DNA of 50,038 nt. Source: Eubacteriales bacterium (lineage in GTDB: Bacteria; Bacillota; Clostridia; Lachnospirales; Lachnospiraceae). Below the pieces are notes generated by a model. That model had not been told where the DNA came from and ran no database searches. It saw only the letters and a list, made by a program, of their open reading frames with translations. Below are positions 23,149 to 40,907 of the stretch, piece after piece. Positions within the stretch are counted from its first letter, which is position 1, and every line of letters begins with the position of its first letter. Made by a program: the position numbers and the translations under genes. The stretch is from the NCBI GenBank assembly GCA_030524545.1, contig JAUNGM010000029.1:1-50038 (forward strand), written 5' to 3'.

Positions 23149-24336
23149 ATGGCAAAGGCTAAGTTTGACAGAACCAAAACGCATTGTAATATCGGTACCA
23201 TCGGACACGTTGACCATGGTAAAACAACCTTAACAGCAGCTATCACCAAAGTTCTGGCTGAAAGAGTTGCTGGTAACACTGCTACAGATTTCGATAACAT
23301 CGACAAAGCTCCGGAAGAAAGAGAGCGTGGTATCACAATCTCTACTGCACACGTTGAGTATTCTACAGATAAGAGACACTATGCACACGTTGACTGCCCA
23401 GGACATGCTGACTATGTAAAGAACATGATCACAGGTGCTGCACAGATGGATGGTGCTATCCTTGTTGTTGCTGCTACTGACGGTGTTATGGCTCAGACTA
23501 AAGAGCACATCCTTCTTTCCCGTCAGGTAGGTGTTCCGTACATCATCGTATTCCTGAACAAATGCGATATGGTTGATGACGAAGAACTTATCGAACTGGT
23601 AGAAATGGAAGTTACCGAGCAGCTTGAAGAGTACGGATTCAATGATTGCCCAATCGTTAAAGGTTCCGCACTGAAAGCTCTGGAAGATCCGTCCAGCGAA
23701 TGGGGCGACAAGATCATGGAACTGATGGACACTGTAGATTCCTACATTCCGGATCCACAGCGTGACACTGACAAACCTTTCGTTATGCCGGTTGAGGACG
23801 TATTCTCCATCACAGGCCGTGGTACTGTTGCAACAGGCCGTGTAGAGGCTGGTACTCTTCATGTATCTGAGGAAGTTGAAATCGTTGGTATCAAAGAAGA
23901 AAAACGTAAAGTAGTTGTAACCGGTATCGAAATGTTCCGTAAACTTCTTGACGAAGCTCAGGCTGGTGACAACATCGGTGCTCTTCTTCGTGGTGTTCAG
24001 AGAAACGAAATCGAAAGAGGACAGGTTCTTTGTAAACCGGGAACACTCAACTGCCATACTAAATTCACCGCTCAGGTTTACGTTCTGACAAAAGACGAGG
24101 GTGGTCGTCATACACCATTCTTCAACAATTATCGTCCGCAGTTCTACTTCAGAACAACAGACGTAACAGGTGTTTGCAACCTTCCGGAAGGAACAGAAAT
24201 GTGTATGCCTGGAGATAACATCGAAATGACAATCGAACTGATTCACCCGATCGCTATGGATCAGGGTCTTACTTTCGCTATCCGTGAAGGTGGACGTACT
24301 GTTGGATCAGGCCGTGTTGCTACAATCATTGAGTAA
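23149..24336 (+). CDS. tuf: Translation elongation factor Tu
   Basis: A 395-residue GTPase that brings aminoacyl-tRNA to the ribosome. Motifs: [38 protein letters not shown] and GSALKAL. The start has TTAAGGAGG. The C-terminus SGRVATIIE and the following terminator are duplicated 16.5 kb downstream at 40825, which shows that an element integrated into this gene end without destroying the reading frame. Confidence 0.98.
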
Positions 24337-24388
24337 TTTGAATATTGCTTGAATTTACGGGGCTTTCCGAGAAATCGGGAAGCCCTTT
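24306..24388 (+). repeat. Left attachment repeat (attL) in the tuf 3' end
   Basis: 83 bp covering the last nine tuf codons (SGRVATIIE), the stop and the terminator hairpin. It matches 40825-40907 with three mismatches: two synonymous third-position changes (ACA/ACT, ATC/ATT) and one base after the stop. The last ~50 bp, from 24339 onward, are identical in both copies. Confidence 0.93.
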
Positions 24389-24390
24389 TT
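24359..24390 (+). terminator. tuf terminator inside the attachment repeat
   Basis: GGGCTTTCCGA pairs with TCGGGAAGCCC around a GAAA loop, followed by TTTTTT. The last T residues lie outside the repeat and belong to the island side. In the right copy (40878-40907) the same hairpin is followed by only TTT and then GCCGCG. Confidence 0.9.
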
Positions 24391-24515
24391 TCAGTTTTGA
24401 GGAAACGGTAATGACGAGGGCAACAGGATGAAAGGAATAATTTTATATCATAGGCAATATCACAGGTAGTCTTCTGGCGGAGATGATGAATATGAAAACG
24501 TGGCGGAATAGTTGT

Positions 24516-24548
24516 AGCAGATATCGTAAGGTATCTGCTGCTATTTTG
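24516..24548 (+). terminator. Hairpin at the left end of the island
   Basis: AGCAGATA at 24516-24523 pairs with TATCTGCT at 24532-24539, followed by GCTATTTTG. The T-run is weak. It could shield island genes from tuf read-through. The rest of 24391-24704 holds only the promoter at 24562. Confidence 0.5.
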
Positions 24549-24561
24549 TATAAAGAATGAA

Positions 24562-24590
24562 TTGAAAAGGGGTGTGTAATAATTTATAAT
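24562..24590 (+). promoter_or_regulatory. Candidate promoter of the MNT-HEPN pair
   Basis: TTGAAA at 24562-24567, a 17-bp spacer and TATAAT at 24585-24590, about 115 bp before the MNT start. Confidence 0.65.
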
Positions 24591-24704
24591 GGGATTAATA
24601 AAGAGGTTTTTGCTTAGAGGAAAAAGGGAATCGTCTGGTGTATAACAAAAGCAGATTTCATCGGGAACTAAGCGACTAGAGTAATTTTGAGAGGAGGTTT
24701 GTGC

Positions 24705-25094
24705 ATGTGCCGCATGATAAGCGTAAAAACAAATTTTGAAACAGAGGTAGAAGTTGCCGATATTAAAAAAGATGTGGTAGAGAATATCATAGAGGCCGCC
24801 GCAGCATGTGCCAGAATCAGCAGGATTATTTTATTTGGCTCTGTTATCGAAACCAGGTGCACGGAGGATTCAGATGTGGATATGGTGGTGGTCAGCGATA
24901 CATCCCGCTCAAGATTATATAAAGATAAGGGCTTTCAGCTTTTTTTGAAGAAACTTCATGACCGGGATGATTACGAGCAAATGTATGATGTGATTTGCGT
25001 TCATGGAATGGATGAAGTGTACCGAAATCAAAACAGTACAGGTTTATTTCGTGAAGTAGCTGAGAAGGGAAAAACGCTTTACAGGAGGGATTAG
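24705..25094 (+). CDS. MNT-type nucleotidyltransferase domain protein
   Basis: A 129-residue minimal nucleotidyltransferase of the DNA polymerase beta superfamily. The signature FGSVIETRCTEDSDVDMVV (GSx9-10DxD) with metal-binding Asp residues is intact. The ATG at 24705 follows GAGGAGG at good spacing; a TTG at 24687 lies within that ribosome site and is less likely. The HEPN gene follows one base after the stop. MNT proteins paired with HEPN proteins can act as antitoxins that modify (AMPylate) the HEPN partner; whether that applies here is inferred from context only. Confidence 0.88.
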   Translation: MCRMISVKTNFETEVEVADIKKDVVENIIEAAAACARISRIILFGSVIETRCTEDSDVDMVVVSDTSRSRLYKDKGFQLFLKKLHDRDDYEQMYDVICVHGMDEVYRNQNSTGLFREVAEKGKTLYRRD

Positions 25095-25095
25095 C

Positions 25096-25491
25096 ATGGC
25101 GATTTCGTTGATAGCATACGCAAAGGCTGATATCCGGGCGGCTCATTCTGCACTTGGCTCCATTCGGGCAAAAGAGGGTAATGAAAAAGCCACAAAAGGA
25201 ATCGCTGCATATCATGCGCAGCAGGCGATTGAGAAAATCATTAAGTCGGAAATATACAGAGTTGCCCCGGATATTAGTCCAAGAAAAATGTATACGCATA
25301 AAATTTACGACCTTTGTTCCATTGCCGAAAGTAATGGTATTAAAGTGCCGAAGGGTATTAAAGAAAAATCCTACATGTACAGTGACTGGGAGGCTGCAGG
25401 ACGGTATGATCTGCATTTTTCGGTTCGTGTAGATTCTGTGGAAAAGGCGCTCCGCCTGGCAGAAAGCTGGCTAAAAGAATTAGAGACGTGA
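25096..25491 (+). CDS. HEPN domain protein
   Basis: A 131-residue all-helical HEPN protein (PF05168-like). The segments YHAQQAIEKIIKSEIY, YTHKIYDLC and GRYDLHFSVRVDS are typical. HEPN toxins use an Rx4-6H ribonuclease motif; here the only candidates are RKMYTH and RYDLH, neither in a clearly canonical position. The protein could be a toxin RNase or a non-catalytic substrate-binding partner of the MNT protein. The two genes are separated by one base and are surely co-transcribed. Confidence 0.85.
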   Translation: MAISLIAYAKADIRAAHSALGSIRAKEGNEKATKGIAAYHAQQAIEKIIKSEIYRVAPDISPRKMYTHKIYDLCSIAESNGIKVPKGIKEKSYMYSDWEAAGRYDLHFSVRVDSVEKALRLAESWLKELET

Positions 25492-25504
25492 TTTTATTTT
25501 GAGT

Positions 25505-26349: not shown

Positions 26350-27726
26350 ATGAGGCCACAACTGAATATTAAGATTGGACCGTGCTGGAAGATGGATTCC
26401 ATTGCCCATATTGATTATGAGCTTACTTATCAGGATGTAAAGGCAACATCCGACACACCGATGTTCTGCCGGTTCGATGAAGCATTCGGCGGACTGTGCC
26501 CGTTCCCGGATATGAAATATCTGGAGATTCAGGATGAACAGGGGATGATTGACTATGAAGAGAAGGAAATTCCATCGTTTAACACCGGAATTAAGTGCTT
26601 TGGATATTTCCCTAAAAGGGAGATAAAAGGTATACTACGTTGGAGTTACAGGGCATTTCCAAGAGTATTACCAGAAAATTACAGAAGCAGCCCGTACTAT
26701 GATTTTAGAGCAGAGCCAGGCGGATTGAACGGATCAGGATTTTTTTCGTTGCTCTTGCCCGTAGCAAATGAAGAATTGGATGTCAGCCTGCATTGGGATC
26801 TGGGCAGGATGCCTGAGGGAAGCCGCGCGATTTTTTCCTTTGGGGAAGGGGATATAGAGAAGCCCATGACGGTTATAGAGCTCGGTATGTCCTTGTTTGC
26901 CGTAGGTAAGATACATGCAGTAGAGAATGAATCCTTTGGTGTATATTACCTGTCCGAACCTGATTTTGAGATCAATCCGATTGTAGAGCGGATCATTCCG
27001 ATTTTTCAATATGAAAGAGAGTATTTCCATGATTTTGACGCGCACTTCAGAGTCTTTCTGAGAAGAGATCCGTTTATGATAAGTAACGGCGGCTCTGCCT
27101 GCAGATATGCTTTTATTTCCGGATACAGTGCATTTGGTGGATTTGATGCGGATAAATGGTTTAATACTTTGATCCATGAGATGACACATACCTGGCCTTA
27201 TATGGATGATAATAATGTGGGGGAAGGAACCTGGTTTACAGAAGGTGCTACGGAATATTACTGTACCTGGCTGCCTTATGTTGGAGGCTTTCTGGATGAT
27301 GAATTTACGGTGAAATGTTTAAATGAAAAGATCGGAAGGCGGTACTATCAGAACCCGTTCAGAGAAACGCCAAACATGGAGCTGCCGAAAATTCAGTGGA
27401 AAGAGAGGGCGGCACAAGAGTGCCCTTATGGAAGAGGATTTCTGTATCTGGCTAATACAGAGGCGCAGCTTCGCCGTGCTGATAAGGGAAGCATTGATGA
27501 TGTGGTAAAGCAGTTTGGGTGGGACCGTCCTATGCATCCTTCGGACTGGAAAGCATTTCTTTTGGAACGGCTGGGAAAAGAGGCGGTCACACAATTTGAA
27601 GAAATGACAGAAGGGAAACTGATGGAACCGGATCCTGATATTTTTGAAAATAAATTCAAGGTTGTAAAGGATGAAATTGAGCTAAATGGCGAAATGGCGG
27701 TTGCTTATCATTTTGAGAAAAAATAA
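26350..27726 (+). CDS. HExxH zinc metallopeptidase, M61/M1-like
   Basis: A 458-residue cytosolic protein (no signal peptide). HEMTHTW at 276-282 with EGATEYY, whose Glu298 follows the second His by 17 residues, forms a gluzincin zinc site like that of M1 and M61 aminopeptidases; WFTEGATEYY resembles the M61 box WFSEGLTSYY. The N-terminal ~200 residues are beta-rich. It is the first gene of a run with a transporter, a PLP enzyme and an amidohydrolase, so it may trim an imported peptide-like substrate. The start has AAGGAGAAG. Assignment to M61 rather than M1 is tentative. Confidence 0.78.
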   Translation: MRPQLNIKIGPCWKMDSIAHIDYELTYQDVKATSDTPMFCRFDEAFGGLCPFPDMKYLEIQDEQGMIDYEEKEIPSFNTGIKCFGYFPKREIKGILRWSYRAFPRVLPENYRSSPYYDFRAEPGGLNGSGFFSLLLPVANEELDVSLHWDLGRMPEGSRAIFSFGEGDIEKPMTVIELGMSLFAVGKIHAVENESFGVYYLSEPDFEINPIVERIIPIFQYEREYFHDFDAHFRVFLRRDPFMISNGGSACRYAFISGYSAFGGFDADKWFNTLIHEMTHTWPYMDDNNVGEGTWFTEGATEYYCTWLPYVGGFLDDEFTVKCLNEKIGRRYYQNPFRETPNMELPKIQWKERAAQECPYGRGFLYLANTEAQLRRADKGSIDDVVKQFGWDRPMHPSDWKAFLLERLGKEAVTQFEEMTEGKLMEPDPDIFENKFKVVKDEIELNGEMAVAYHFEKK

Positions 27727-27741
27727 GAGGAGAAAATACAT

Positions 27742-29121
27742 ATGTTAGATAAAAGAATTCCATTAAAAACAAAAGTAGCTCTTGGCGTGGCGGGATGGGC
27801 AAATAACCTGCTGATCCTTCTGAATACTTACTTTTTGTTATATTTTTATACGGATGTGGTAGGCATATCCGGCGGGACTGCGGCAGTCATTATGCTGATT
27901 GCACGTGTGTGGGATGCGGTGAATGATCCGATGATGGGAATTATTGTAGATAAGACAAGGTCAAAAGAGGGAAAATGTCGCTTCTGGTTAAAATATTTTT
28001 CTGTTCCTGCTGCTGTTGTTTTGTTCCTGAGCTACTTTTGTCCCGCCGTATCAACGCCGGGAAAGATTGCCTGGGTTGCTGTCACTTATATTTTACAGGG
28101 AATGGCTTCCACTGTTCTTTCTGTAGCAGGCAATGCACTGGTTGCCCGTGTGACGGATCAGGCGGAAGAACGTGTGTTGATCCAGCAGATTGCATCTGTT
28201 GGAAATATTGTCTTATCTCTCATGATTCCTTCCGTTACACTGCCGATGGCGACAGCGTTTGCGGGAAAAAGCCAGAATATGGTACAGGGTTTTGGTATTA
28301 CCGTAGGAATCTATTCCGTTATTTATGCGGTTCTTCGTCTGGCAGCCTGGAAGGGAACAGAAGGATATGACGCGGTCAGCGATGCGGATGAAGACTCCAA
28401 AGAGGCACAGAATCGTGGGCAGGGCGTTCTCGAATTATTCAGACAGACATTAAAAAATCATTATGCCCTGCTGGTATCGATGACCTATATTTTTTATCTG
28501 CTGGTTTCGGCCACAATGGGAAGCACTCTGGTATTTTATTTTAAGTATAACCTGCAGAATACTTCCATGCTCAGTATCTATTCAGTGACAACTATGGTGG
28601 GATCGGTAATTGGCATTCTGGTAATGAAACCGATGTACCGGCTGCTGGGAAATGCAAAATCCTGCGCTTTCTGCGGCGCCGTATGTATTGTGGGATGTAT
28701 AATGCGATGGATTACTATGGATAAGAACTTGATCATTTTCATTGCTGCCATGGTAATCATGGGCTTCGGAAGCGGTATGATAGGTTCCTTTTCTATACAG
28801 TGTATTCTGGATTCCTGTACCTATGCAAAGCTGAAGGACGGTGCGGATAACCAAGCAACAGTTATGTCTATCTTCACTTTTTCCCAAAAGCTTGGACAGG
28901 CGTTAGGCGCTGTCATTGCAGGATGGCTGTTGCAGCTGGTTCCTTATGAAGCGAATGCGGCAATACAGAAGGATTCCGTACTAAATCTGTTCTTTGCCGA
29001 AAATATTATTTTTCCGATGATCCTTTCTGGTTGTCTTACGATTGGATTTCTATTCGTAGCACGTTATGAGAAGAAGCTGAGGGCGCTTGTGAAGAGCGGA
29101 GAGCGGGAAAATATTTCCTGA
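27742..29121 (+). CDS. GPH-family (MFS) cation symporter
   Basis: A 459-residue membrane protein with about 12 transmembrane helices. The segment RVWDAVNDPMMGIIVDKTRSKEGKCRFW is the signature of the glycoside-pentoside-hexuronide:cation symporter family. Known members import sugars, glucuronides and some non-sugar solutes with Na+ or H+. The neighbours are peptidases and amino-acid-type enzymes rather than glycosidases, so the substrate may be an amino-acid conjugate. It starts 15 bp after the peptidase gene. Confidence 0.9.
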   Translation: MLDKRIPLKTKVALGVAGWANNLLILLNTYFLLYFYTDVVGISGGTAAVIMLIARVWDAVNDPMMGIIVDKTRSKEGKCRFWLKYFSVPAAVVLFLSYFCPAVSTPGKIAWVAVTYILQGMASTVLSVAGNALVARVTDQAEERVLIQQIASVGNIVLSLMIPSVTLPMATAFAGKSQNMVQGFGITVGIYSVIYAVLRLAAWKGTEGYDAVSDADEDSKEAQNRGQGVLELFRQTLKNHYALLVSMTYIFYLLVSATMGSTLVFYFKYNLQNTSMLSIYSVTTMVGSVIGILVMKPMYRLLGNAKSCAFCGAVCIVGCIMRWITMDKNLIIFIAAMVIMGFGSGMIGSFSIQCILDSCTYAKLKDGADNQATVMSIFTFSQKLGQALGAVIAGWLLQLVPYEANAAIQKDSVLNLFFAENIIFPMILSGCLTIGFLFVARYEKKLRALVKSGERENIS

Positions 29122-29132
29122 GAGGAAGTGTA

Positions 29133-30323
29133 ATGATAGAATTTGCAAATAGAAAAAATATTGGAAATATGAAGGGGCAGATGGAGGAACATTTATCCAA
29201 TGGAGGAATTTCGCTAAAAAAAGGCAATGAATTGATTTATCTGAGCGGTGCAGAGATGGATCTGAAAACTGCCCCGGTGATCAGAAAATGTCTTTTGGCC
29301 TTCGCGGAAAATGGTTTGTATGGATATACGATTCAGGATCATGCATACAACCATGCGGTATGCAGGTGGATGGAAAGGACACGTTCTTTGAAACTCGCTG
29401 AAGAGGATGTAGTGGTTGCCACGGGAACCGTGTCCGCAGTCAATACGGCAATAAAAGCTTTTACTATGCCAGAGGACGGAATCGTGATCCAGTCTCCTTC
29501 CTATTACCGGTTTGACAGAGCCATCAGAAATCAGGGAAGGAAAATCGTATATAATCCCATGATTTATGAAAACGGAACCTACCGGCTCGACCTTGAAGAT
29601 CTGAAACACTGCTGTGAGAAAGCGGAGAATAAGATGCTTTTGATCTGTAATCCTCATAATCCCACAGGACGTGTTTTTACGAAGGAAGAACTGGCGGATA
29701 TGGTAAAAATTGCTCAGGAAAATAATATGATCATTTTCTGTGATGAAATTTTTGGGGAAATGGTACTTGATGCAAAAGCATTTTATTCACTTCTTACTGT
29801 TTCGAAGCAGAGGATCATCGTATCGACCTCTTTGGGAAAGAGTTTTAACTTTACGGGTGTCAACCAGGCCAACCTGCTGATCTGTGATCCTGCTGTTAAA
29901 GAGAGATTCTTACAGCAACAGAAGAAAGACCATATTGGCAGTATTGATCCGTTTTTTTATAACGCTCTCTGTGCGGCTTATACAGAGGATGGATTTTCCT
30001 GGATCAGGAAGGTATGTACCTTGGTAGAGAAAAACGACCGGCTGATCAGAGAGTTTTGTGGAAGAGCAATGCCTCTTATCAGGCCGGTACCGCTTCAAGG
30101 AGGATTTATCTTGTGGATGGATATGCATGCGCTTGGACTTGACGATGCGGCTCTTCAGTATTTTATGGAGCAAGAGGCGAATGTGATCGGCGATCCAGGA
30201 AGAGAGTATGGCAATTGTGGGAAAGGCTTCTACCGACTGCAGATTGCAGCGCCGGAGGAGAAAATCCATTGTATGCTCGTCCAAATAAAGAAAGCATATG
30301 ATGAAGGAGGATTTGGGGTATGA
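29133..30323 (+). CDS. PLP-dependent aminotransferase / C-S lyase (MalY/PatB-like)
   Basis: A 396-residue fold-type I PLP enzyme. Visible motifs are the substrate-loop region GLYGYTIQD, CNPHNPTGRVFT, FCDEIFGEMV (Asp contacting the PLP ring) and the Schiff-base Lys in STSLGKSFNFTG. The SLGKSFN(F/L)xG pattern and GLYGYT are typical of the MalY/PatB cystathionine beta-lyase-like group, which cleaves cysteine S-conjugates, but true aminotransferases share them. It is 11 bp after the transporter gene and overlaps the next by four bases. Confidence 0.88.
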   Translation: MIEFANRKNIGNMKGQMEEHLSNGGISLKKGNELIYLSGAEMDLKTAPVIRKCLLAFAENGLYGYTIQDHAYNHAVCRWMERTRSLKLAEEDVVVATGTVSAVNTAIKAFTMPEDGIVIQSPSYYRFDRAIRNQGRKIVYNPMIYENGTYRLDLEDLKHCCEKAENKMLLICNPHNPTGRVFTKEELADMVKIAQENNMIIFCDEIFGEMVLDAKAFYSLLTVSKQRIIVSTSLGKSFNFTGVNQANLLICDPAVKERFLQQQKKDHIGSIDPFFYNALCAAYTEDGFSWIRKVCTLVEKNDRLIREFCGRAMPLIRPVPLQGGFILWMDMHALGLDDAALQYFMEQEANVIGDPGREYGNCGKGFYRLQIAAPEEKIHCMLVQIKKAYDEGGFGV

Positions 30324-31495
30324 TATTAAATCATGTAAGATTGATAAAGGAATTATCCTCAGGCCTTAGCACGGAATGTGGATATGTAAGGGTTGAAAAC
30401 GGTATCATCACGGAGGTGTCGGAGAAGCCTTATCCTGTAACGGAAGATAATAGAGAAACGATTAAAGATTGTAAAGGAAAGACCTTGCTTCCCGGTCTGA
30501 TTGACCTGCATACGCATATAACTGTACTGAATCAGGTTGGTTTTGAATATCTGCATTCAGATATGGGGCTTTTAACGGCAGCAGCGCAACATGCAGCCGA
30601 GTACCTGGATATGGGATTTACAACAATTCGTGACTGTGGAAGTATTCACCGTGTGGCAAACGAGGTGAAGCATATGGTACAGATCGGACTGATAGAAGCT
30701 CCTGATTTGATTACTTGTGGAAGGGCTATCATACCTACAGAGGGCAGTGAAAAGCATATGATGGCACAGCATGTCCATTTTGCAGATACGGTGGATGAGG
30801 TGAAAAAAGCAGCCAGACAGGAAATAGCAGAGGGAGCTGATTTTGTGAAAGTCTTTGCTTCTGGAGCGGCAGCAATTGCGACTGGCGTGCCGCAGCAGAG
30901 TATTATGTTTTCGGAAGAGATTGAAGCAGCGGTAAAAACAGCAGAGCGAAAAGGTTGCTACGTTGCCGCACATTGTCATGCGGATGAAGCAATCAGAAAC
31001 TGTATCCATAATGGCGTAAAAACCATTGAGCATGCGACTTTGATTTCTGATAAGACACTGACACTTGCGGCAGAAAGCGATTCATATCTGGTTCCGACTT
31101 TGGCGGTTATGTATATCTCTGATGGTCCCCGAAGATCCTATTGGGAAAAGCGGCTGGGGCCTATGTTCCGTCATTGCACGGAAAAGATGACAAAGGCCTA
31201 TGAGATGGGAATGTATCTGGGGTTTGGCACAGACTGTTCGGCAGGGGATTTTTGCTATAATAACGGAATTGAATTTAAGTTCCGTAAGGAAAATTGTGGA
31301 ATGAAGGATCTGGATATCCTGCTTCAGGCTACAAGAAATAACGCAGTGATTGCGGGGATAGAGGACAAGGTTGGCCAGATCCGAAAGGGACTTAGGGCAG
31401 ATATGATCCTGATAGACGGAAAACCGGATCAGAATATCAGATGCATGTATCATAAACCGGATTTCGTTATGAAGCGGGGAAAAATCGTGCGCTGA
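30320..31495 (+). CDS. Metal-dependent amidohydrolase (imidazolonepropionase/prolidase-like)
   Basis: A 391-residue member of the amidohydrolase superfamily. The ordered metal-site motifs are present: LIDLHTHI (HxH), the bridging Lys in DFVKVFASG, AAHCHAD, TIEHATL and the catalytic Asp in GFGTDCSAG. The sequence is closest in pattern to the Sgx9260/COG1228 group, which hydrolyses Xaa-Pro-type dipeptides or N-acyl amino acids. The start overlaps the previous stop (ATGA). It is the last gene of the first half of the cluster and runs toward the convergent regulator gene. Confidence 0.88.
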   Translation: MILNHVRLIKELSSGLSTECGYVRVENGIITEVSEKPYPVTEDNRETIKDCKGKTLLPGLIDLHTHITVLNQVGFEYLHSDMGLLTAAAQHAAEYLDMGFTTIRDCGSIHRVANEVKHMVQIGLIEAPDLITCGRAIIPTEGSEKHMMAQHVHFADTVDEVKKAARQEIAEGADFVKVFASGAAAIATGVPQQSIMFSEEIEAAVKTAERKGCYVAAHCHADEAIRNCIHNGVKTIEHATLISDKTLTLAAESDSYLVPTLAVMYISDGPRRSYWEKRLGPMFRHCTEKMTKAYEMGMYLGFGTDCSAGDFCYNNGIEFKFRKENCGMKDLDILLQATRNNAVIAGIEDKVGQIRKGLRADMILIDGKPDQNIRCMYHKPDFVMKRGKIVR

Positions 31496-31516
31496 ATCTG
31501 AGGAAAGAGCTGGATG

Positions 31517-32161: not shown

Positions 32162-32208
32162 AGTAAGTACCTCGTTTGTATTATAAACACTATAATTGTA
32201 ACACCGGG

Positions 32209-32223
32209 TTGATAATTTATCAA
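32209..32223. promoter_or_regulatory. Palindromic operator between regulator and M20 gene
   Basis: TTGATAATTTATCAA, a perfect 7-bp inverted repeat around one base, in the 93-bp divergent region. It matches the site at 26219-26233 in both half-sites (TTGAT/ATCAA) and spacing. Confidence 0.65.
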
Positions 32224-32254
32224 TCTGTTTGGCATTTAGAAAAGGAGGAAAAAT

Positions 32255-33448
32255 ATGCTGGATTATAAGATGCTTATTAAAAAATATGAAAAGGATATGA
32301 TCCGGAACAGACGGTATTTACATCAACATCCGGAACTCGGTTTTGACTTGGATAATACAGTTCGTTATGTGAAAGAAGAGCTTACTGAAATGGGATGTGA
32401 ACCGATGGATATTGGAAACCATGGAATAACAGCCGTAATTGGAGAAAAAGAAGGAAAGTGTATTCTTCTGCGTGCAGATATGGATGCTCTTCCCATGAAG
32501 GAAGAGAGCGGACTGCCTTTTGCCTGCACCTCTGATAATGCTGCGCATACTTGCGGACATGATATTCATACAACTATGCTTCTGACAGCGGCCAGGATTC
32601 TCAAGGAGAGAGAGGATAAAATTCCCGGAACAGTGAAGCTGTTGTTTCAGCCGGCAGAGGAAATAGGATATGGCTGTCGCAATATGGTTGAGAGTGGGAT
32701 CCTGGAGAACCCGAAGGTGGATGCTGCATTCGGCATCCATGTTATGTCCTGCTTTCCAAAAGAAACAGTTCTTTACGGCACAGGCAGTTTATCTACAGGT
32801 GCTGATCTGTTTACGATTACCGTCCATGGAAAAGGAGGACATGGGTCTGTTCCGCATACAACGATTGATCCGATCAATATCGCAAGCCATATCGTTATTA
32901 ACCTGCAGACAGTTAATAGCCGTGAAGTGGATGCACAGGAGATGGTTGTCCTTAATTTTGGCGCGATGAATGCAGGATCTGCCGGTAATGTTATTCCTGA
33001 GACTGCGATATTAAAAGGGAATATTCGCACATTCCGCAATGATATCCGTGAACAGGTGAAGAAACGTGTTGCTGAAATTGCAGAGCAGACCGCTGAAATG
33101 TTTGGCGGAAGTGCGGAAATAGAGTATTCTCTGCAAATGGCAACAGTTACTACAGATCCGGAGATTACCAAATTATGTGGGGATGAGATTAAGAAGTACA
33201 TAGATCCTGCCAAACTGAATGACCATATTTTAAAACTGCCGTTTAGTGAGGATTTTTCCAATATCAGTGAGCTGGTTCCATCTACTTTTTTCCTGGTTGG
33301 GGCTGCCCCTGAGAGCAGCGAGGTGGTCATGCAGCATAATCCTCGTGTTATTTTCGACGAGGAATCTATGAAGACAGGCGTTCTTGTCTATGTAGCCGGA
33401 GCGATGGGATATCTAAATGGTATGGAGGAGAAAGAAATATGTATGTAA
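32255..33448 (+). CDS. M20 family amidohydrolase (N-acyl amino acid hydrolase)
   Basis: A 397-residue M20D metallohydrolase of the hippurate hydrolase / N-acyl-L-amino acid amidohydrolase type. Motifs: LHQHPELGF, RADMDALPM, AHTCGHDIHTTML, LLFQPAEEIGYG and GIHVM, which hold the two metal ions and catalytic Glu, and a dimerisation lid domain starting at GKGGHGS. Enzymes of this group remove acyl groups (acetyl, benzoyl and others) from amino acids. The start has AAAGGAGG. The end overlaps the next gene by ten bases. Confidence 0.92.
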   Translation: MLDYKMLIKKYEKDMIRNRRYLHQHPELGFDLDNTVRYVKEELTEMGCEPMDIGNHGITAVIGEKEGKCILLRADMDALPMKEESGLPFACTSDNAAHTCGHDIHTTMLLTAARILKEREDKIPGTVKLLFQPAEEIGYGCRNMVESGILENPKVDAAFGIHVMSCFPKETVLYGTGSLSTGADLFTITVHGKGGHGSVPHTTIDPINIASHIVINLQTVNSREVDAQEMVVLNFGAMNAGSAGNVIPETAILKGNIRTFRNDIREQVKKRVAEIAEQTAEMFGGSAEIEYSLQMATVTTDPEITKLCGDEIKKYIDPAKLNDHILKLPFSEDFSNISELVPSTFFLVGAAPESSEVVMQHNPRVIFDEESMKTGVLVYVAGAMGYLNGMEEKEICM

Positions 33449-34386
33449 TTGAAGAGGAACAGGTAAGAAATTTTCTGACACCGGAGAAATGTATGGCGGT
33501 TATGAAGGAAACCCTTATGAGCCTGGAAGAGGGGAAATGTGTGATGCCACAGAGATTGATCTGCAAAATGCCTAATACAGCATCCTTCGGCTTTATGCCT
33601 GCTTATATAGGAGACTATTTTGGTGCCAAAGTAATTACGGCTTATAGGCCGAATATGGGTACGGGATATCCCTCCCATATCGGCTATGTGATGTTATTTG
33701 AAAGTGAGCATTGTACAGTCTGCAGTATGATTGAGGCCGGAAGCATTACGGAGATTCGTACCGGATGTGTATCTGCAGTGGCAACAGAGCTATTGTCGAG
33801 AAAGAATGCTCATAAGCTGGCAGTGATTGGAGCCGGTGCGCAGGCAAGAAGTCATCTGGCTGCAATCAGACTTGTAAGAGATATCACAGAGGTTACGGTG
33901 TATGATAGGAATCCGGAAGCTTCAAAAAAATATGCAGGAGAAATGGAAGAGAAGTATGGAATCCCGGTGATTTCATGTGATAGTGTGGAAAGTGCTGTCG
34001 CATATGCAGATATTATCTGTACTGTATGTCCTGCAAAAGAAGCGTATCTTACCAGAAATATGGTAAAAGAAGGTGTTCATATCAATGCGGTAGGTACTTT
34101 CTCGCCGATGACCAGAGAGGTTGCTTCTGATTTGATTGCAGTATCGAGACTTTACTCTGACTATACCCCTTCATGCAGAAAGGAGAGTGGAGAATATCTT
34201 ATCCCATTAAAAGAAGGAATGATTACAGAGAAGCATATCATCGGCTCAGTAGGTGAACTTCTTCTGGGAAAGGTACAGGGACGACAGAGTGATTGTGACA
34301 TCACTGTTTTTGATGCGTTGGGACTTGCAGTTGAAGATGTGGCCAGCGCAAAGGTGGTTTATTTTGAAAATATGGTATTAAACTAA
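33439..34386 (+). CDS. Ornithine cyclodeaminase / mu-crystallin family protein
   Basis: A 315-residue Rossmann-fold enzyme. The dinucleotide site VIGAGAQARSH (about 129-139), the EAGSITEIRTG region and VFDALGLAVEDVA are typical. Members include ornithine cyclodeaminase, alanine dehydrogenase and ketimine or piperideine-2-carboxylate reductases, all acting on amino or imino acids with NAD(P). It overlaps the M20 gene, so the products are coupled; the pair could release an amino acid and then oxidise or reduce it. The exact reaction cannot be told from sequence. Confidence 0.9.
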   Translation: MYVIEEEQVRNFLTPEKCMAVMKETLMSLEEGKCVMPQRLICKMPNTASFGFMPAYIGDYFGAKVITAYRPNMGTGYPSHIGYVMLFESEHCTVCSMIEAGSITEIRTGCVSAVATELLSRKNAHKLAVIGAGAQARSHLAAIRLVRDITEVTVYDRNPEASKKYAGEMEEKYGIPVISCDSVESAVAYADIICTVCPAKEAYLTRNMVKEGVHINAVGTFSPMTREVASDLIAVSRLYSDYTPSCRKESGEYLIPLKEGMITEKHIIGSVGELLLGKVQGRQSDCDITVFDALGLAVEDVASAKVVYFENMVLN

Positions 34387-34496: not shown

Positions 34497-35399
34497 ATGA
34501 CATTACAGCAGCTAAAATACATGATAACAATAGCGGAAAAGGGTTCCATCACAGAGGCGGCAAAGGAATTGTTTATTTCACAGCCCAGTCTTTCGGGGGC
34601 GGTCAAGGAAGTGGAGAATGAAGCCGGGATCACCATTTTTAACCGCTGCCGGGCGGGGGTTGCATTGACTACGGAAGGTATGGAGTTTTTGGGATATGCA
34701 CGTCAGGTAGTGCAGCAGATGGAGCTTCTGGAATCCCGGTACATAGATAATCAGCCGGAAAAGCAGAGGTTTTGTATCTCCACACAGCATTATACATTTG
34801 CTGCCAATGCTTTTGTGGAACTGGTGCAGCAGTTCGGCCAGGAAAGATATGAGTTTATTTTGAATGAGACACAGACATATCAGATTATTATGGATGTCAG
34901 GAACCGCTTTAGTGACCTTGGGGTACTCTATCTTAGTAAGGCAAATGAAAATGTATTGATGAAAGTTTTTGAAGAGTACAATCTGAATTTTTATGAGCTG
35001 TTTACGGCTACTCCGCATGTGTTTCTACGGAAAGGCCATCCGCTGGCGGATCGGGAGAAGATCAGCCTGGAAGATCTGAAACCATATCCAAGGCTGAACT
35101 TTGTGCAGGGGGCTTATGAATCTTCTAATTTTGCGGAGGAATTATTCAGTAATGAGATTGCGGAAAAGAGCATCAGGATTAGCGACCGTGCCGCTATCGT
35201 GAATTTTATGATTGGTCTGGATGGCTATACCATTTCAAGCGGTATTTTCCCCAGATATCTCCATGGGGATTCCATCATTTCTATCCCTTTGGATGAGGAT
35301 GAAACCATGCGGATTGGATATATCCTGAATAAAGACCGGGAATTATCCCGGCTGGGTGAAATTTATGTAGAAGCACTGAAACAGTATCAAGAAGATTGA
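34497..35399 (+). CDS. LysR-family transcriptional regulator
   Basis: A 300-residue LysR-type regulator. The N-terminal winged HTH (about 1-60) reads LQQLKYMITIAEKGSITEAAKELFISQPSLSGAVKEVE; the C-terminal part is the periplasmic-binding-like effector domain. It precedes a LysE-family exporter gene in the same direction, a common pairing in which the regulator senses the exported amino acid. The ribosome site is AGGGAGG. Confidence 0.92.
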   Translation: MTLQQLKYMITIAEKGSITEAAKELFISQPSLSGAVKEVENEAGITIFNRCRAGVALTTEGMEFLGYARQVVQQMELLESRYIDNQPEKQRFCISTQHYTFAANAFVELVQQFGQERYEFILNETQTYQIIMDVRNRFSDLGVLYLSKANENVLMKVFEEYNLNFYELFTATPHVFLRKGHPLADREKISLEDLKPYPRLNFVQGAYESSNFAEELFSNEIAEKSIRISDRAAIVNFMIGLDGYTISSGIFPRYLHGDSIISIPLDEDETMRIGYILNKDRELSRLGEIYVEALKQYQED

Positions 35400-35422
35400 A
35401 ACATAGGTTCAGCCTATGTTTT
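35400..35422 (+). terminator. Hairpin after the LysR gene
   Basis: AACATAGG at 35400-35407 pairs with CCTATGTT at 35413-35420; a short TT follows. A weak terminator or attenuator between regulator and exporter genes. Confidence 0.5.
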
Positions 35423-35493
35423 AGCATAAGTAATCGGTATTACCTATCATATGGCATTCCGCTGTAGAATCGTAAGTGGAAGGAGGCGTTATT

Positions 35494-36078
35494 ATGCCAG
35501 GCTATGTGATAGGAAATTTTGTTGTTTATTCTGTAATCAATGCGTTCACGCCGGGGCCGGGTAATATCCTGGCTTTAAATACCGTGACGAATTATGGATG
35601 GAAGAAAGGGGCTCCCCTCTTTTTTGGTATATTCTCCGGGTATTATGTGGTGCAGATGATCTGTGCGGTATTTGTCTATGGGATGAGTACGCTGCTGCCG
35701 GATGTGTTGGGGGTAATGAAGTATGTGGGAGCTGCTTATATCCTCTGGCTGGCAGTCCATATCGCTGTCAGCCGGCCGGATGGAGATGGCGGAGAGAGAT
35801 CGGCCTCTTTTTTAAAAGGTTTCATGCTGCAGTTTGTGAATGTGAAGATTTATCTTTTTGGGATTACGGCACTGACCGGATATGTAACGAACTACAGTAC
35901 GGCTCTGCCGGTATTGGTTTTCTTTGAATTTGTGATAGCGACGATTGGAACGGTTGCTACATCTGCGTGGATTGGTGCAGGGCTGGCAATCCAGAAAGTT
36001 TACCTGCGGCATTACCGCTTGATCAACATTATTCTTGCTGTTACTTTATTGGAATGTGTATACAGTATATTGAAATAA
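35494..36078 (+). CDS. LysE/RhtB-family amino acid exporter
   Basis: A ~194-residue membrane protein with about six hydrophobic helices. The FTPGPGNILALNTV motif near the N-terminus is the LysE/RhtB family signature. The ATG at 35494 follows AGGAGG; a GTG at 35476 is less likely. It lies after a LysR regulator, which suggests effector-controlled export of an amino acid or a toxic analogue. Confidence 0.88.
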   Translation: MPGYVIGNFVVYSVINAFTPGPGNILALNTVTNYGWKKGAPLFFGIFSGYYVVQMICAVFVYGMSTLLPDVLGVMKYVGAAYILWLAVHIAVSRPDGDGGERSASFLKGFMLQFVNVKIYLFGITALTGYVTNYSTALPVLVFFEFVIATIGTVATSAWIGAGLAIQKVYLRHYRLINIILAVTLLECVYSILK

Positions 36079-36102
36079 AGGTCTGTGTATATGGAGGTTA
36101 TT

Positions 36103-36271
36103 ATGACGGGTCAGGATATTTTTCATAAGGACACAGAGTATATTGCCCATACTTATCAGCGTTTTCCGGTTGCAGTCCGGTGTGGGCATGGTGCGGCTGT
36201 CTGTTGGCCTGGAACATGTAGAGGATATTATTGAGGATTTGGAAAGGGCGTTTTCTGGTCTGAAAATATGA
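36103..36271 (+). pseudogene. Chimera of two PLP-enzyme fragments
   Basis: An ATG with GGAGG at 36103 begins MTGQDIFHKDTEYIAHTYQR and FPVAVR, which resembles the N-terminus of class III (ArgD-like) aminotransferases. From about 36173, in another frame, the sequence reads MVRLSVGLEHVEDIIEDLE, the C-terminal end of a Cys/Met-metabolism PLP enzyme (MetY/MetB-like), ending at TGA 36269-36271. Everything between the two is missing. Both pieces are too short to function. Confidence 0.65.
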
Positions 36272-36288
36272 GGGAAGTGAATGGGACT

Positions 36289-36984
36289 ATGAAATATCAG
36301 ATAGAAAAGGCGGTTGCCGACATTGGCGTAAAAGTGGTTTTTGGATCTATTGAAGGTGTGGATAATACTGGGAGGAATCCTGAATGGGAGGCTGAACGTA
36401 AGGTAAGGCTGGAAAATTTACAGAAGCGTTTTGAAGGATTGGATATTCATGGGGATCCCGTTTTTGAAGGATACCATATCCTGCATGATAAATCCGGTGT
36501 TAAGCGGAGAAAAAATATCCCATCTAGTGAAAATCTGATAAAAATGCTGTTGAAGCATGGGAATATGCCTTTTATCAATCAGGTAGTGGATATTTATAAT
36601 GTGATCTCTATGGAGAGCAGGCTTTGTGTGGCGGCGCATAATCTGGATAAGATTGACGGAAATCTGACGGTTCGGTTTTCGGACAGTACGGAAAAGTATA
36701 TTCCGCTGGGACAGGAACAGCCGGTTCCGATGAATCCGCATGAATACTGTTATTGTGATGATTCCAATGAGGTTTTATGTCGGCTGGAAATCCGGCAGGT
36801 CAATAAAACTAAGGTGGATGAAAATGTGAGGAATATTCTATATATCATTGAAGGGAATGAGGCGACAGAGGAAGATTTTCTATTAGAAGTTATGCGGGAG
36901 ATTATAGATACCACAATGAAATATTGTGGAGGGAACGGGAAGATTTTTCGCCCCAATATAGTAGAAAGAAATCTAAAAGGCTAG
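36289..36984 (+). CDS. B3/B4 domain protein
   Basis: About 231 residues, resembling stand-alone B3/B4 domains related to the editing domain of phenylalanyl-tRNA synthetase beta. Features are an N-terminal VKVVFGSIEGVDN, PSSENLIKMLLKHGNMPFINQVVDIYN and SMESRLCVAAHNLDKIDG, followed by the LGQEQPVPMNPHEY region. Such proteins are thought to bind or hydrolyse mischarged tRNA, or to be linked with amino-acid metabolism; activity here is unproven. The ATG at 36289 is preferred; an ATG at 36268 overlaps the upstream fragment and has no ribosome site. Confidence 0.8.
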   Translation: MKYQIEKAVADIGVKVVFGSIEGVDNTGRNPEWEAERKVRLENLQKRFEGLDIHGDPVFEGYHILHDKSGVKRRKNIPSSENLIKMLLKHGNMPFINQVVDIYNVISMESRLCVAAHNLDKIDGNLTVRFSDSTEKYIPLGQEQPVPMNPHEYCYCDDSNEVLCRLEIRQVNKTKVDENVRNILYIIEGNEATEEDFLLEVMREIIDTTMKYCGGNGKIFRPNIVERNLKG

Positions 36985-37013
36985 ATTATATGAGTTTGGT
37001 AAGGGAGCAAATA

Positions 37014-37538
37014 ATGAAAATCAGGGAAGCGGAATTAGCGGATTTGGATGAATTGATGAAATTCTATAATGTAATGTGCGAAATTTTAGGGGAGAAAAGC
37101 TTTTTGCCAGAAGGAAATAAAGGTGGATTTCCCTCCCAGAAAATGGTGGAGGATGCGATTCAACAGCATGACCAGTTTATCGGCAAGGAAGATGACCGAA
37201 TCATGGCGGCTTATATCATGAATCATGAATGCGATCAGATATATGATACAGTGCAATGGCAGATAAAAGCGGATAGAAATGAAATAATGATACTTCATGC
37301 CCTGCGTGTCCTTCCAGAATATACGGGAAGAGGTAATTCCAAAAAACTTGTAGAGCATGCAATTCAGACGGCAAAAGCACGGAAACAAAAGGCGATTCGC
37401 CTGGATTGTATCGAAGGAAATGATGTTCCCCAGAAAATGTATATGTCTTTTGGGTTTCATTATATAGACACTGTTGAAATCACCTATGCTGATATAGGTG
37501 TTCCCAGGAAGTTTCTTGTTTTTGAATTATTGCTTTAA
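37014..37538 (+). CDS. GNAT-family N-acetyltransferase
   Basis: About 174 residues. The N-terminal IREAELADLDELMKFYN, the acetyl-CoA-binding loop LRVLPEYTGRGNSKKLVEHAI (a Q/RxxGxG/A variant) and the C-terminal KAIRLDCIEGNDVPQKMYMSFGF are typical of GNAT enzymes. The ATG at 37014 follows AAGGGAG at good spacing; the longer frame to 36924 overlaps the upstream gene and is less likely. The substrate is unknown. Confidence 0.88.
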   Translation: MKIREAELADLDELMKFYNVMCEILGEKSFLPEGNKGGFPSQKMVEDAIQQHDQFIGKEDDRIMAAYIMNHECDQIYDTVQWQIKADRNEIMILHALRVLPEYTGRGNSKKLVEHAIQTAKARKQKAIRLDCIEGNDVPQKMYMSFGFHYIDTVEITYADIGVPRKFLVFELLL

Positions 37539-37541
37539 AAT

Positions 37542-37881
37542 CTGTTTGAGAAGCAGAAATCCGGGGAAATCAGGCTGCTTGGAATGCCGGAATATGACGG
37601 GTTTTCTTATGAGGGCGTGCTATTTAAACAGTGCGGTGATAAAAAGTGTATTGGTTGTGGGGCATGTTCGAATCTGCCCGCAAAAAGCTATTTGTGCGGA
37701 AAATCCATGCCAGACCAATGAGGAACGCTGTATCGCCTGCGGTGCCTGCATTATGGCTTGTCCGACGGGGACAAGAAATTATCATAGTGAGCTTTATGAG
37801 CAGGTTCGAGTGGATTTTGAAAAGTTGTGTGCAGAGTATGGAACACCAAAAACCTTTTATGTGCAGGAGACAGTGTTATGA
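37542..37881 (+). pseudogene. Frameshifted 2[4Fe-4S] ferredoxin-domain protein
   Basis: One frame reads GVLFKQCGDKKCIGCGACSNL and then loses the pattern; the next frame continues CPQKAICAENPCQTNEERCI and then CIACGACIMACPTGTRNYHS to the stop at 37879-37881. Together they rebuild two CxxCxxCxxxCP clusters, so a frameshift near 37670 broke the gene. No proper start is visible upstream. It may come from an EFR1- or flavodoxin-ferredoxin-type protein. Confidence 0.7.
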
Positions 37882-38561: not shown

Positions 38562-38924
38562 ATGTACAATGATTTTCAGATAATTGCAAAAAATATTAAG
38601 TACCTTCGAGAAAGAAAAGGTTATACACAAGAACAGCTTGCAGAGGCGGCGAATGTATCAACTTCTTATTTGAGCAAAATAGAATCCGGACAACGGAGAA
38701 TTGGCATGAAAGCATATTTAAGTATTTTACAGATATTAGGTGCTACAGAGGAAGAATTTATTTCTATTGCTGCAGACGAGCAAAAAGAAAGCGATTTTAA
38801 GAAATATCAGGATATTATGGAAGATTGCAATGAAGCAGAAAAAAAGTTTCTGCTTGATACGTTGGAAAATTTAAAAGAAAATTTGAGAGTGCTAATGTGT
38901 GATAATCGCCCCATAGATATCTGA
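38562..38924 (+). CDS. XRE-family HTH regulator
   Basis: A 120-residue DNA-binding protein. The N-terminal Cro/CI-type HTH (about 8-62) reads IKYLRERKGYTQEQLAEAANVSTSYLSKIESGQRRIG. The C-terminal half is acidic, helical and likely for dimerisation. The start has AAAGGA. It lies next to the RHH and integrase genes and probably controls excision or maintenance of the island. Confidence 0.92.
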   Translation: MYNDFQIIAKNIKYLRERKGYTQEQLAEAANVSTSYLSKIESGQRRIGMKAYLSILQILGATEEEFISIAADEQKESDFKKYQDIMEDCNEAEKKFLLDTLENLKENLRVLMCDNRPIDI

Positions 38925-39048: not shown

Positions 39049-39079
39049 AAAGGCAAGTCTGAGGCTGGGGCTTGCCTTT
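39049..39079 (+). terminator. Hairpin downstream of the XRE gene
   Basis: AAAGGCAAG at 39049-39057 pairs with CTTGCCTTT at 39071-39079. The T-run is short (TTTATAG). Probable weak terminator. Confidence 0.6.
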
Positions 39080-39141
39080 ATAGTGCATGTTCAGATTTTT
39101 TAATAATAATTAATCCGAGCGAGCAAAGGATTTATGGCACC

Positions 39142-39171
39142 TTGACAAGTTTGTTAAACAAAAAGTAAAAT
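39142..39171 (+). promoter_or_regulatory. Promoter and operator of the RHH-integrase genes
   Basis: TTGACA at 39142-39147 and TAAAAT at 39166-39171 with an 18-bp spacer. A palindrome TTTGTT-A-AACAAA (39150-39162) fills the spacer, a position where a bound repressor would block the polymerase; the RHH or XRE protein is the likely binder. Confidence 0.7.
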
Positions 39172-39197
39172 AGTTATAAGCACAAGGAGGTGTGCAT

Positions 39198-39365
39198 ATG
39201 GCAAAAATGGGGCGTCCCAAAAAGGATGAGACGAAATGTAAATCCATTGGCATTCGCCTTTGGGACGAACAATACACTCGATTGATGCAATATGCTTTTG
39301 AACATGGGCTGACTATAACACAAGTAGTGCAAGAGGCTTTGGAAAGATTTTTGCAGAGTAAATAA
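39198..39365 (+). CDS. Small ribbon-helix-helix (CopG/Arc-like) protein
   Basis: A 55-residue protein starting MAKMGRPKKDETK, followed by KSIGIRLWDEQYTRLMQYA and TITQVVQEALERFL, the beta-strand/helix/helix pattern of RHH DNA-binding proteins. The GRPKK N-terminus is frequent in mobile-element regulators. The ribosome site is AAGGAGG. It sits 44 bp before the integrase gene and is probably co-transcribed with it, as directionality factor or repressor. Confidence 0.85.
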   Translation: MAKMGRPKKDETKCKSIGIRLWDEQYTRLMQYAFEHGLTITQVVQEALERFLQSK

Positions 39366-39409
39366 CGCAGGCACAAAATCTCTTTCCTTCTATATAGAAA
39401 GGAGTAGAG

Positions 39410-40648
39410 ATGGCAAAAGCAAGAAAAGATAACAAAGGCAGAGCGTTACGGAAGGGAGAAAGCCAGAGAACACAGGATAATAGGTACATTTATACATATA
39501 CAAACCCTATGGGAAAGCGTGGTTATGTATATGCAAACACTTTACAAGAGCTTCGGGAGAAAGAGGATAAGCTGATTCGGGATCAATTAGACGGGCTGGA
39601 TTTATATGTAGCGGGGAAAGCCGATTTGAACTTTGTTGTAGACAGGTATCTGGCGACAAAGAACAATCTTGCATCATCAACCTATGCGAATTACCGATAT
39701 ACATACGATCATTTTTGCAAGGATGGGTGGGGAAAGCGGAAAGTTGCAGAAATTAAGTATTCAGATGTATTACATTTTTATCTGCATCTTATAGATGAAG
39801 GTATTAAGGTAAAAACAGTAGAGTCACTTCATTGTGTTTTACATCCTGCGTTTGATCTGGCTGTGAGAGATGAAATTATTCGCAAAAACCCTAGTGATGG
39901 TGTGCTTTCTGAAATTAAGAAGCAGCGAGGTAGAAAGCAAAAGGTTCAGCGGGCATTGACTCTGGAGCAACAGATAGAATTAATGGAATATGTCACAGAT
40001 CATCCGTTGTATGACTATTGGAGGCCATTGTTTACCGTCCTTTTGGGAACAGGCTGCCGGATTGGAGAAATCTGTGGGCTTAGATGGCAGGATGTTGATA
40101 TGGAGAACCGTATTATAGACATCAACCATAGTATGACATATTTCCGCAGAGGAAAAGAAGCACCTTATACCTTTGAGTTTAGGTTTGAGCCGCCTAAAAC
40201 AAAAGCTGGAATAAGGAAAATCCCGATGTTGGATGAAGTGTATAATGTCTTGAAGGAATTACATGATTACCAAACAGAGAATGGATTTAGTACTCTTGTG
40301 GTAGATGGTGCGACAGGATTTATTTTTATCAATAAGGCCGGAACCTTGTATAAGCATAATGCCATAGATCATTCGATACGGCGTATAGTAAATAACCATA
40401 ATGCCGAGGAAGAAGTCAAGGCAAAGAAAGAACACAGGGAACCTGTGATGCTTCCGTTTTTTTCATGCCATACATTTAGACATACCTTTTGTACCAGATT
40501 CTGTGAAAACGAAACGAACGTAAAAGTTATTCAGGCAGTCATGGGTCATGCGGATATCAACACAACAATGGATATTTATGCTGAAGTAACAGAAGCAAAA
40601 AAAAGAGAATCAATGGAGAGTTTATCAAAGAATTTAAAAGTTTTTTAG
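39410..40648 (+). CDS. int: Tyrosine integrase (Tn916 Int-like)
   Basis: A 412-residue site-specific recombinase. It has an N-terminal arm-DNA-binding part (YIYTYTNPMGKRGYVYANTLQ), a SAM-like core-binding domain (about 60-170) and a catalytic domain. Catalytic residues are visible: Arg in GTGCRIGEICGLRW, HTFRH (HxxR) near 355, the second His in MGHADINTT and the nucleophilic Tyr in MDIYAEV near 390. It ends 177 bp before the right attachment repeat and is the enzyme that put the island into tuf. The start has AAAGGAG. Confidence 0.95.
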   Translation: MAKARKDNKGRALRKGESQRTQDNRYIYTYTNPMGKRGYVYANTLQELREKEDKLIRDQLDGLDLYVAGKADLNFVVDRYLATKNNLASSTYANYRYTYDHFCKDGWGKRKVAEIKYSDVLHFYLHLIDEGIKVKTVESLHCVLHPAFDLAVRDEIIRKNPSDGVLSEIKKQRGRKQKVQRALTLEQQIELMEYVTDHPLYDYWRPLFTVLLGTGCRIGEICGLRWQDVDMENRIIDINHSMTYFRRGKEAPYTFEFRFEPPKTKAGIRKIPMLDEVYNVLKELHDYQTENGFSTLVVDGATGFIFINKAGTLYKHNAIDHSIRRIVNNHNAEEEVKAKKEHREPVMLPFFSCHTFRHTFCTRFCENETNVKVIQAVMGHADINTTMDIYAEVTEAKKRESMESLSKNLKVF

Positions 40649-40676
40649 GAAAGAGTCCGGAAAGCGGATTCACGAG

Positions 40677-40812
40677 TTTGCAACAAAAAAGCAATTTTGC
40701 AACAGATTTGCAACGAATTTTGGATTGATAGTGCAGAATGATACAGAACAGTGCATGAACAAAAATTCCAGAAATAAAGCGGTTTGAGCGATAATGCGCA
40801 ATCGTGCATGAA
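40677..40812 (+). promoter_or_regulatory. Candidate integrase arm-binding repeats
   Basis: Between the integrase stop and the right repeat: three copies of TTTGCAAC (40677-40684, 40696-40703, 40707-40714) and two copies of GTGCATGAA (40751-40759, 40804-40812), plus a related GTGCAGAA near 40731. Spaced short repeats next to an att site fit arm-type sites of a Tn916/lambda-class integrase. Confidence 0.6.
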
Positions 40813-40824
40813 AAGCGAAATACA

Positions 40825-40907
40825 ATCAGGCCGTGTTGCTACTATTATTGAGTAAGTTGAATATTGCTTGAATTTACGGGGCTTTCCGAGAAATCGGGAA
40901 GCCCTTT
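40825..40907 (+). repeat. Right attachment repeat (attR), copy of the tuf end
   Basis: Encodes SGRVATIIE, a stop and the tuf terminator hairpin, with no upstream tuf sequence. Matches 24306-24388 with three mismatches. From 40908 on the sequence is unrelated to the island's left end, as expected for a right junction. Confidence 0.93.

Follow-up and report, generated by a model that had tools for sequence, protein, structure and literature searches.

We analysed a window of 50,038 bp, which is one complete contig (C52; GenBank JAUNGM010000029.1) of the 4.34-Mb genome of a Lachnospiraceae bacterium (assembly GCA_030524545.1), and conclude that a mobile element whose tyrosine integrase is of the Tn916 type has very probably inserted site-specifically into the final codons of tuf, which encodes the essential protein elongation factor Tu (EF-Tu). 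The tuf gene is intact and is the last of an rpsL-rpsG-fusA-tuf run, and its final codons, stop and terminator recur as a second copy whose start lies 16,519 bp from that of the first (Table 1). As an earlier note made from the bare sequence had described, the two copies share 83 bp with three mismatches; its coordinates for the right copy (40825-40907) were correct, and the left copy ends at 24388. The mismatches fall at 24324 (A/T), 24327 (C/T) and 24337 (T/G), the last being the first base past the tuf stop, and alignment confirmed that the other two are synonymous (Thr ACA/ACT and Ile ATC/ATT), both copies encoding SGRVATIIE and the target protein being unchanged. When a 101-bp query covering the repeat was compared with the whole genome, only two places matched, with E values (3.6e-47 and 2.5e-33) far beyond chance. 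The right copy begins 176 bp past the end of an outward-facing gene in which Pfam domains PF02920 and PF00589 bear out the tyrosine integrase predicted there. Neither an ARAGORN search for tRNA genes in the window nor an Rfam scan returned a match.

In the mechanism that we propose, crossover would take place in or near TCAGGCCGTGTTGCTAC (codons S-G-R-V-A-T), and the attP of the element would supply a transcription terminator and the stop codon along with the remainder of the tuf end, so that EF-Tu would stay identical and tuf would still terminate. The attribution of one or the other repeat copy to the host is presumptive. The element would descend from mobilizable elements, relatives of which carry relaxase and Xis-like genes, and would now carry a metabolic operon.

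The integrase and its target site

A scan of named genomes yielded 73 loci with relatives of the integrase; genomes and loci are cited here by our own G and L numbers. The tuf 3'-end sequence (TCNGGNCGT...) lies 178-182 bp past the last integrase codon in all five loci in which the integrase is at least 78.5% identical to that of the window (L103, L104, L105, L106 and L169), the contig ending 9 bp (L105) or 20 bp (L104) into the tuf end. Among the other 68 integrases, which are at most 62.5% identical, a tuf end was found in none of the 64 with at least 200 bp downstream, the remaining four (L133, L141, L147 and L154) having too little downstream sequence for this comparison. Since close relatives of the integrase sit at tuf ends and distant ones do not, the arrangement argues for site-specific integration rather than tuf duplication. 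The search for the same integrase beside other tuf ends, which the earlier note had advised, thus upholds its proposal that an integrase drove the insertion at the end of tuf and that the coding sequence is kept. Moreover, the right-copy core in L104 equals the tuf of its own genome over 20 of 20 bp (TCCGGTCGTGTGGCTACGAT) and differs from that of the window at four positions; cores therefore follow the host, in keeping with the need for identical overlaps in recombination.

From 39141-39150 to the tuf core, the window is 73-79% identical (blastn) to L103, L104, L105 and L106, and leftward this homology ends abruptly at 39141-39150, delimiting a conserved recombination module. Within it, a gene for a ribbon-helix-helix-like protein precedes int, an order kept by eye in L104 and L105. 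Three TTGCAAC repeats lie between int and the tuf core, with equal spacing in L103, L104 and L105 (offsets within 2 bp), an altered middle copy in L106 and two copies found in L169; from this layout they are probable candidates for arm-type integrase binding sites.

Of the 68 distant integrases, 39 adjoin a site coding [FIL]PT[ML]K[ST] by the strict motif (37 with differently set ends, 41 by a looser motif), which we term metG-type, site classes having been set by regular expressions. In L110, L116 and L158 this site leads directly into a C-terminal tRNA-binding domain of the MetRS type, for which the best NCBIfam match in L110 and L116 was metG_C_term (113.0 and 113.9 bits, just under the cut-off of 116.65). 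In L117 the motif runs into an HD-domain open reading frame (ORF), so not every motif match need be metG, and the group is not cleanly labelled because one integrase classed as 'other' in the tree is identical to one of the metG class (the pair L125/L126). At the metG-type site of sister integrases (about 46-62% identical), the tRNA-binding domain was seen to lie severed on the right-hand side of the element, and in L112, L126 and L140 the motif is soon followed by a stop.

A maximum-likelihood tree of 64 rows (the window and 63 of the 73 loci, ten partial loci including L169 being left out) placed the tuf rows (the window and L103-L106) on one branch (100/100) with a long stem, among metG-type and unclassified rows. 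As judged from these sequences, the tuf-type integrases are thereby shown to be of single origin, and their clade has apparently changed its target from a metG-type site to tuf. This apparent shift of a single clade makes the basis of integrase target choice testable.

tuf as an integration hotspot in the family

Extra tuf 3' ends were also present in 17 of 63 congeners, one or two in each, about 55 bp long and starting at the equivalent of window positions 24281-24283 (query 1292-1294); this count leaves out G031 and G047, with doubtful pieces, and in G001, G033 and G036 the piece lies off the contig that holds the full tuf. Across the family, the exact pattern GRVATIIE was found in 107 of 392 genomes, 16 of which (our own included) have at least two occurrences on one contig. 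The 15 others each belong to another genus, and 14 of them combine one full or contig-cut tuf with partial ends, G241 having two partial ends; none showed two full tuf genes in the fetched stretch. These partial ends comprise exactly residues 379-395 in nine genomes and start at residues 360-378 in six.

The integrases typed at other tuf ends were of the Arm-DNA-bind_4 type in L066 (together with a Mob_Pre relaxase), L067 and L247 and lacked that domain in L069, and those of L067, L069 and L072 are 23-24% identical to the integrase of the window where aligned. They were located with a crude regular expression that gives false matches and found none in several loci (e.g. L232, L237 and L238). 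The Arm-DNA-bind_4 elements of Lachnospiraceae resemble the element described here in using the 3' end of tuf and in having a stop and terminator in their tuf-side copy, but differ in that their integrase is unrelated, int is on the tuf side and the core starts about 23 bp further upstream (codon 379). The tuf gene is therefore a hotspot in this family for at least two kinds of integrase, and the rarity that the earlier note had ascribed to protein-gene targets does not apply to tuf here.

In G056 (L074, 2700-12551), tuf is directly followed by a phage-like element that carries an ERF gene and an integrase of the Arm-DNA-bind_4 type, with a 24-bp match to the tuf core 9.8 kb on; this element may be a third kind. 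A repeat, GCAATGAGCAGTGCAAG...CGAATGCCCGACCGAGATGAAGCGTAGCGAAATCGAGG and variants, recurs after the tuf stop in L094, L062, L071, L068 and L232.

Terminators at tuf ends

On balance we favour the broader view that the tuf 3' end serves as a docking site across Lachnospiraceae, reached by convergence in at least two unrelated integrase lineages, and that the elements bring a replacement tuf end with them and so swap the terminator of a highly expressed essential gene between genera. The terminator-like stem-loop of the window is also found at tuf 3' ends in other genera, the stem GGGGCTTTCCGAGAAATCGGGAAGCCC occurring at tuf ends of many genera, and 49 of the 392 family genomes (our own included) matched a 71-bp query at E<=0.01. 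In 52 of 253 pairs with at least 80 aligned bases, drawn from 23 genomes of 22 genera that were checked to have tuf upstream and were partly chosen for ends resembling that of the window or each other's, the 100 bp of 3' untranslated region (UTR) past the stop were more alike than tuf itself; the other 201 pairs had no such excess. Identities of UTR versus tuf reached 99.0% vs 87.7% (G213/G363), 99.0% vs 87.0% (G024/G213), 96.8% vs 80.5% (G225/G228) and 94.0% vs 82.1% (G319/G225). For the window the excess was only marginal, with G413 (80.6% vs 80.4%), and G348 and G192 were dropped because tuf is not upstream of that end. These comparisons support the view that element groups would each carry a tuf end and terminator of their own, with an old and conserved terminator of the host keeping some residual probability as the cause of the alike UTRs, and suggest that the tuf 3' UTR and terminator may be exchangeable mobile parts.

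Alternative explanations and the right edge

Several observations weigh against an insertion at tuf with terminator exchange, beginning with the 201 pairs without UTR excess and the partial selection of genomes in that comparison. No empty site was found downstream of tuf or upstream of the opp block in G029, G056, G030 and others, and the uninterrupted junction of tuf with position 40908 that the earlier note would have sought in relatives was absent from the congener loci examined; the part of its interpretation that is supported is integration at tuf with the coding sequence preserved. Both ends of this kind of element lie on one contig in the window only, among the genomes fetched, most relatives come from metagenome assemblies, and no circular form or transfer was seen. 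Beyond the tuf end, no homology was noticed between the left ends of the window and L183 (which with L104 makes up two contigs of one genome). Finally, beyond the stop codon the two repeat copies of the window are identical at 51 of 52 positions, which is not what the simplest single insertion predicts.

The main matches of tuf in congeners have DNA identities of 79-94%. In the two congeners that come closest in this region, tuf is followed by another UTR and a contig end 1.4 kb on (G029, 94%) or by another element (G056, 93%). The opp block, at 44.28 kb in the window, lies on separate contigs in G029, G056 and G030; in G062, whose genome is closed, it is found upstream of tuf at a distance of about 90 kb, so the order of tuf and opp is not conserved.

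Because tuf is duplicated in some bacteria, the repeat could in principle descend from an old tandem tuf duplication whose second copy decayed to 83 bp, the counter-explanation that the earlier note had named. We give it practically no weight and regard it as ruled out, as no tuf body lies upstream of 40825, where int arm DNA conserved across other genomes is found instead, and none of the 15 other-genus genomes with several tuf ends on one contig has two full genes in the stretch fetched. It is also improbable that the metabolic genes at 26-36 kb are native chromosome, with the integrase module as the only foreign part after a rearrangement. Their GC content (41-46%) resembles that of the left flank (42-48%), and the segment 26465-33420 is 72% identical to a block in G012, the sole congener (1 of 63) with an island match above 1.6 kb, where the operon has ordinary chromosomal surroundings with no integrase noticed within the 18 kb read. 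However, in the window the operon sits between the two tuf ends, and none of 23 stretches past the tuf ends of 22 congeners matched the window.

With insertion at tuf as the preferred reading, two accounts of the right edge were weighed. That the right copy is a plain host edge (attR) of a single insertion, the two copies being alike either because the terminator native to tuf in this species is of the element's type or because they were homogenised, has a probability that we put a little short of even. Alike UTRs at left and far tuf ends were found in 9 of 30 comparisons elsewhere (G083, G085, G009, G025, G039, G044, G045, G062 and G063), alike meaning at least 90% identity over 47-60 aligned bases; short alignments of low identity are unreliable here. 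The 30 comparisons paired either neighbouring tuf ends or the first with the last (13 in 13 other-genus genomes and 17 in 14 congeners), the alike copies being the first and third in G044 and the first and second in G045. The occurrence of the same terminator type at tuf ends of many genera, in the 49 genomes given above, points the same way. Against a host edge, the tuf 3' UTR differs in the close congeners G029 and G030, a search with that of G029 gave only chance-level matches in the genome of the window, and the T run of the right copy is incomplete (TTTGCC vs TTTTTTC in the left).

More tentatively, two related elements may have accreted in tandem at tuf, the second (40825 to about 44280) having decayed to a remnant with Septu genes, in which case 40907 may be an internal junction of an array instead of the host edge. 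The near-identical non-coding parts of both copies, the low-GC block past the right copy, possibly the remnant of such a second, decayed element, and the triple tuf-end arrays of G035, G044 and G045 are consistent with this. However, no third tuf core with up to three mismatches was found near 44.3 kb, where the conserved opp flank starts (44280-44297), the lone three-mismatch match, at 29667, being at chance level, and there is no integrase among the ORFs of 40908-44280. Alike copies are, moreover, not special to the window; as they are not rare, they are by themselves no proof of a second element.

Comparison with known elements

The element kind is known from sites such as guaA, rpsI and rplL, and tuf would be a new target. 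According to passages of PMC4701971, PMC5357655 and PMC5704250, streptococcal integrative and conjugative or mobilizable elements use tyrosine integrases at the 3' ends of rpsI, rplL, rpmG, rpmE, guaA and lysS. Like the element in the window, they have the integrase at one end, direct repeats and a rebuilt 3' end of a housekeeping gene, and the same passages describe tandem accretion and target-gene switches within an integrase family, from guaA to rplL and from rpsI to rpmE (PMC5357655). The target here is, in contrast, tuf; neither 'tuf' nor 'elongation factor' occurs in the main texts of these three papers. The element shares with Tn916 an integrase with the arm-binding domain PF02920, and its relative L104 has a gene resembling the xis of Tn916. 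Tn916 is described in part of PMC4701971 as having low target specificity and no direct repeats, whereas the integrase clade of the window is tuf-specific and no conjugation gene was found among the 17 island ORFs searched with Pfam. The sister metG-type integrases are of the same family, with arm repeats of similar layout by eye, but their target, where checked (L110, L116 and L158), precedes a MetRS-type domain and is not tuf.

The titles, abstract openings and passages of the open-access literature, subscription papers not being covered, did not mention tuf as an integration site, and its use as an attachment site seems unreported there. In this literature, tuf or EF-Tu genes appear inside islands (PMC3478194), as a typing gene (PMC8319831) and in lists of virulence-type genes (PMC12382657 and PMC9366087). 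With tuf, which occurs in nearly every bacterium, the set of housekeeping genes that serve as attachment sites is enlarged, in a family common in the gut.

Contents and mobility of the island

Table 1. Coordinates and supporting matches of features in the window.
Feature	Position	Strand	Details
tuf (EF-Tu), target gene	23149..24336	+	395-aa ORF
Left repeat copy (attL)	24306..24388	+	final tuf codons, stop, terminator
Terminator-like stem-loop and T run	24359..24391	+	GGGGCTTTCC-GAGAAATC-GGGAAGCCC; fold z -5.05 (right copy z -3.74)
Nucleotidyltransferase and HEPN pair	24687..25491	+	24687-25094 (PF18765/PF01909) and 25096-25491 (PF05168)
Metabolic cargo block	26350..34386	+	YheO-type regulator on minus strand (31517-32161)
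LysR regulator, LysE exporter, B3/4-domain protein, GNAT, ferredoxin-like ORF	34497..37881	+	
XRE-type regulator	38562..38924	+	PF01381
Conserved recombination module, common to tuf elements of other genomes	39141..40855	+	blastn
Ribbon-helix-helix-like protein, just 5' of int	39198..39365	+	55 aa; frame 39207-39365 vs PF21432, E 0.0036 (below cut-off)
Tn916-type tyrosine integrase, right end	39410..40648	+	412 aa; PF02920 E 2.9e-18, PF00589 E 8.9e-30
Three TTGCAAC repeats	40678..40714	+	at 40678, 40697 and 40708
Right repeat copy (attR, or attL of a second element)	40825..40907	+	
Low-GC block with Septu genes	40908..44281	+	GC 31-36% over 41-44 kb
Septu PtuA	41189..42442	+	PADLOC, E 4e-121
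Septu PtuB (HNH)	42423..43190	+	PADLOC, E 9.3e-63

The genes between the repeat copies include a nucleotidyltransferase/HEPN pair that is likely to be an MNT/HEPN toxin-antitoxin system and a metabolic block that encodes an M61-like peptidase (below cut-off), a GPH symporter, a PatB-like aminotransferase, an amidohydrolase, a YheO-type regulator, an M20 amidohydrolase and an ornithine-cyclodeaminase-like protein.

Relatives of the element carry genes for mobilization. Upstream of its module, L104 encodes MobA (PF03432, E 8e-33), a MobC/NikA-like protein and a 61-aa DUF6462 protein with weak similarity to the Xis of Tn916 (E 0.0037, below cut-off); L103 has a sigma-like gene and MobA, and L105 a similar small upstream ORF by eye. 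Searched against the window with tblastn, the MobA and MobC proteins of L103 and L104 gave only noise matches (E 0.10 or worse), and the Xis-like protein of L104 had no match at E<=1, an unrelated excisionase being possible. Among the upstream proteins of the relatives, the XRE-type protein of L104 matched at E 8e-7 and the others at E 0.08 or worse. A Pfam scan of 17 island ORFs detected no family linked to conjugation, relaxases or replication, smaller ORFs lying outside the scan. As the island lacks the Mob and Xis genes of its relatives, it is probably immobilised. It seems, from this absence, to derive from a mobilizable element through loss of mob and xis, and is probably not mobile by itself, unless helped in trans.

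Past the right copy and outside the interval of the earlier note, the low-GC block holds a complete-looking pair of a PtuA ATPase gene and a PtuB HNH gene side by side, the arrangement by which Septu is recognised. Two short pieces of this region, 88% identical, were also seen in G029 (contig C107, L081). In L183 (767-2703; G459/G165, with an integrase 89% identical), a cytosine DNA methyltransferase gene follows tuf, its neighbour possibly being the cognate restriction enzyme. Regions downstream of tuf are suggested as a place to look for cargo such as defence genes.

The rpo and str genes usually lie close together. In the window, a sortase/pilin-like cluster with LPXTG-like ends was noted by eye between rpoC and rpsL (8695-19399), and includes a 1925-aa protein rich in EEHTHTEECY-like repeats.

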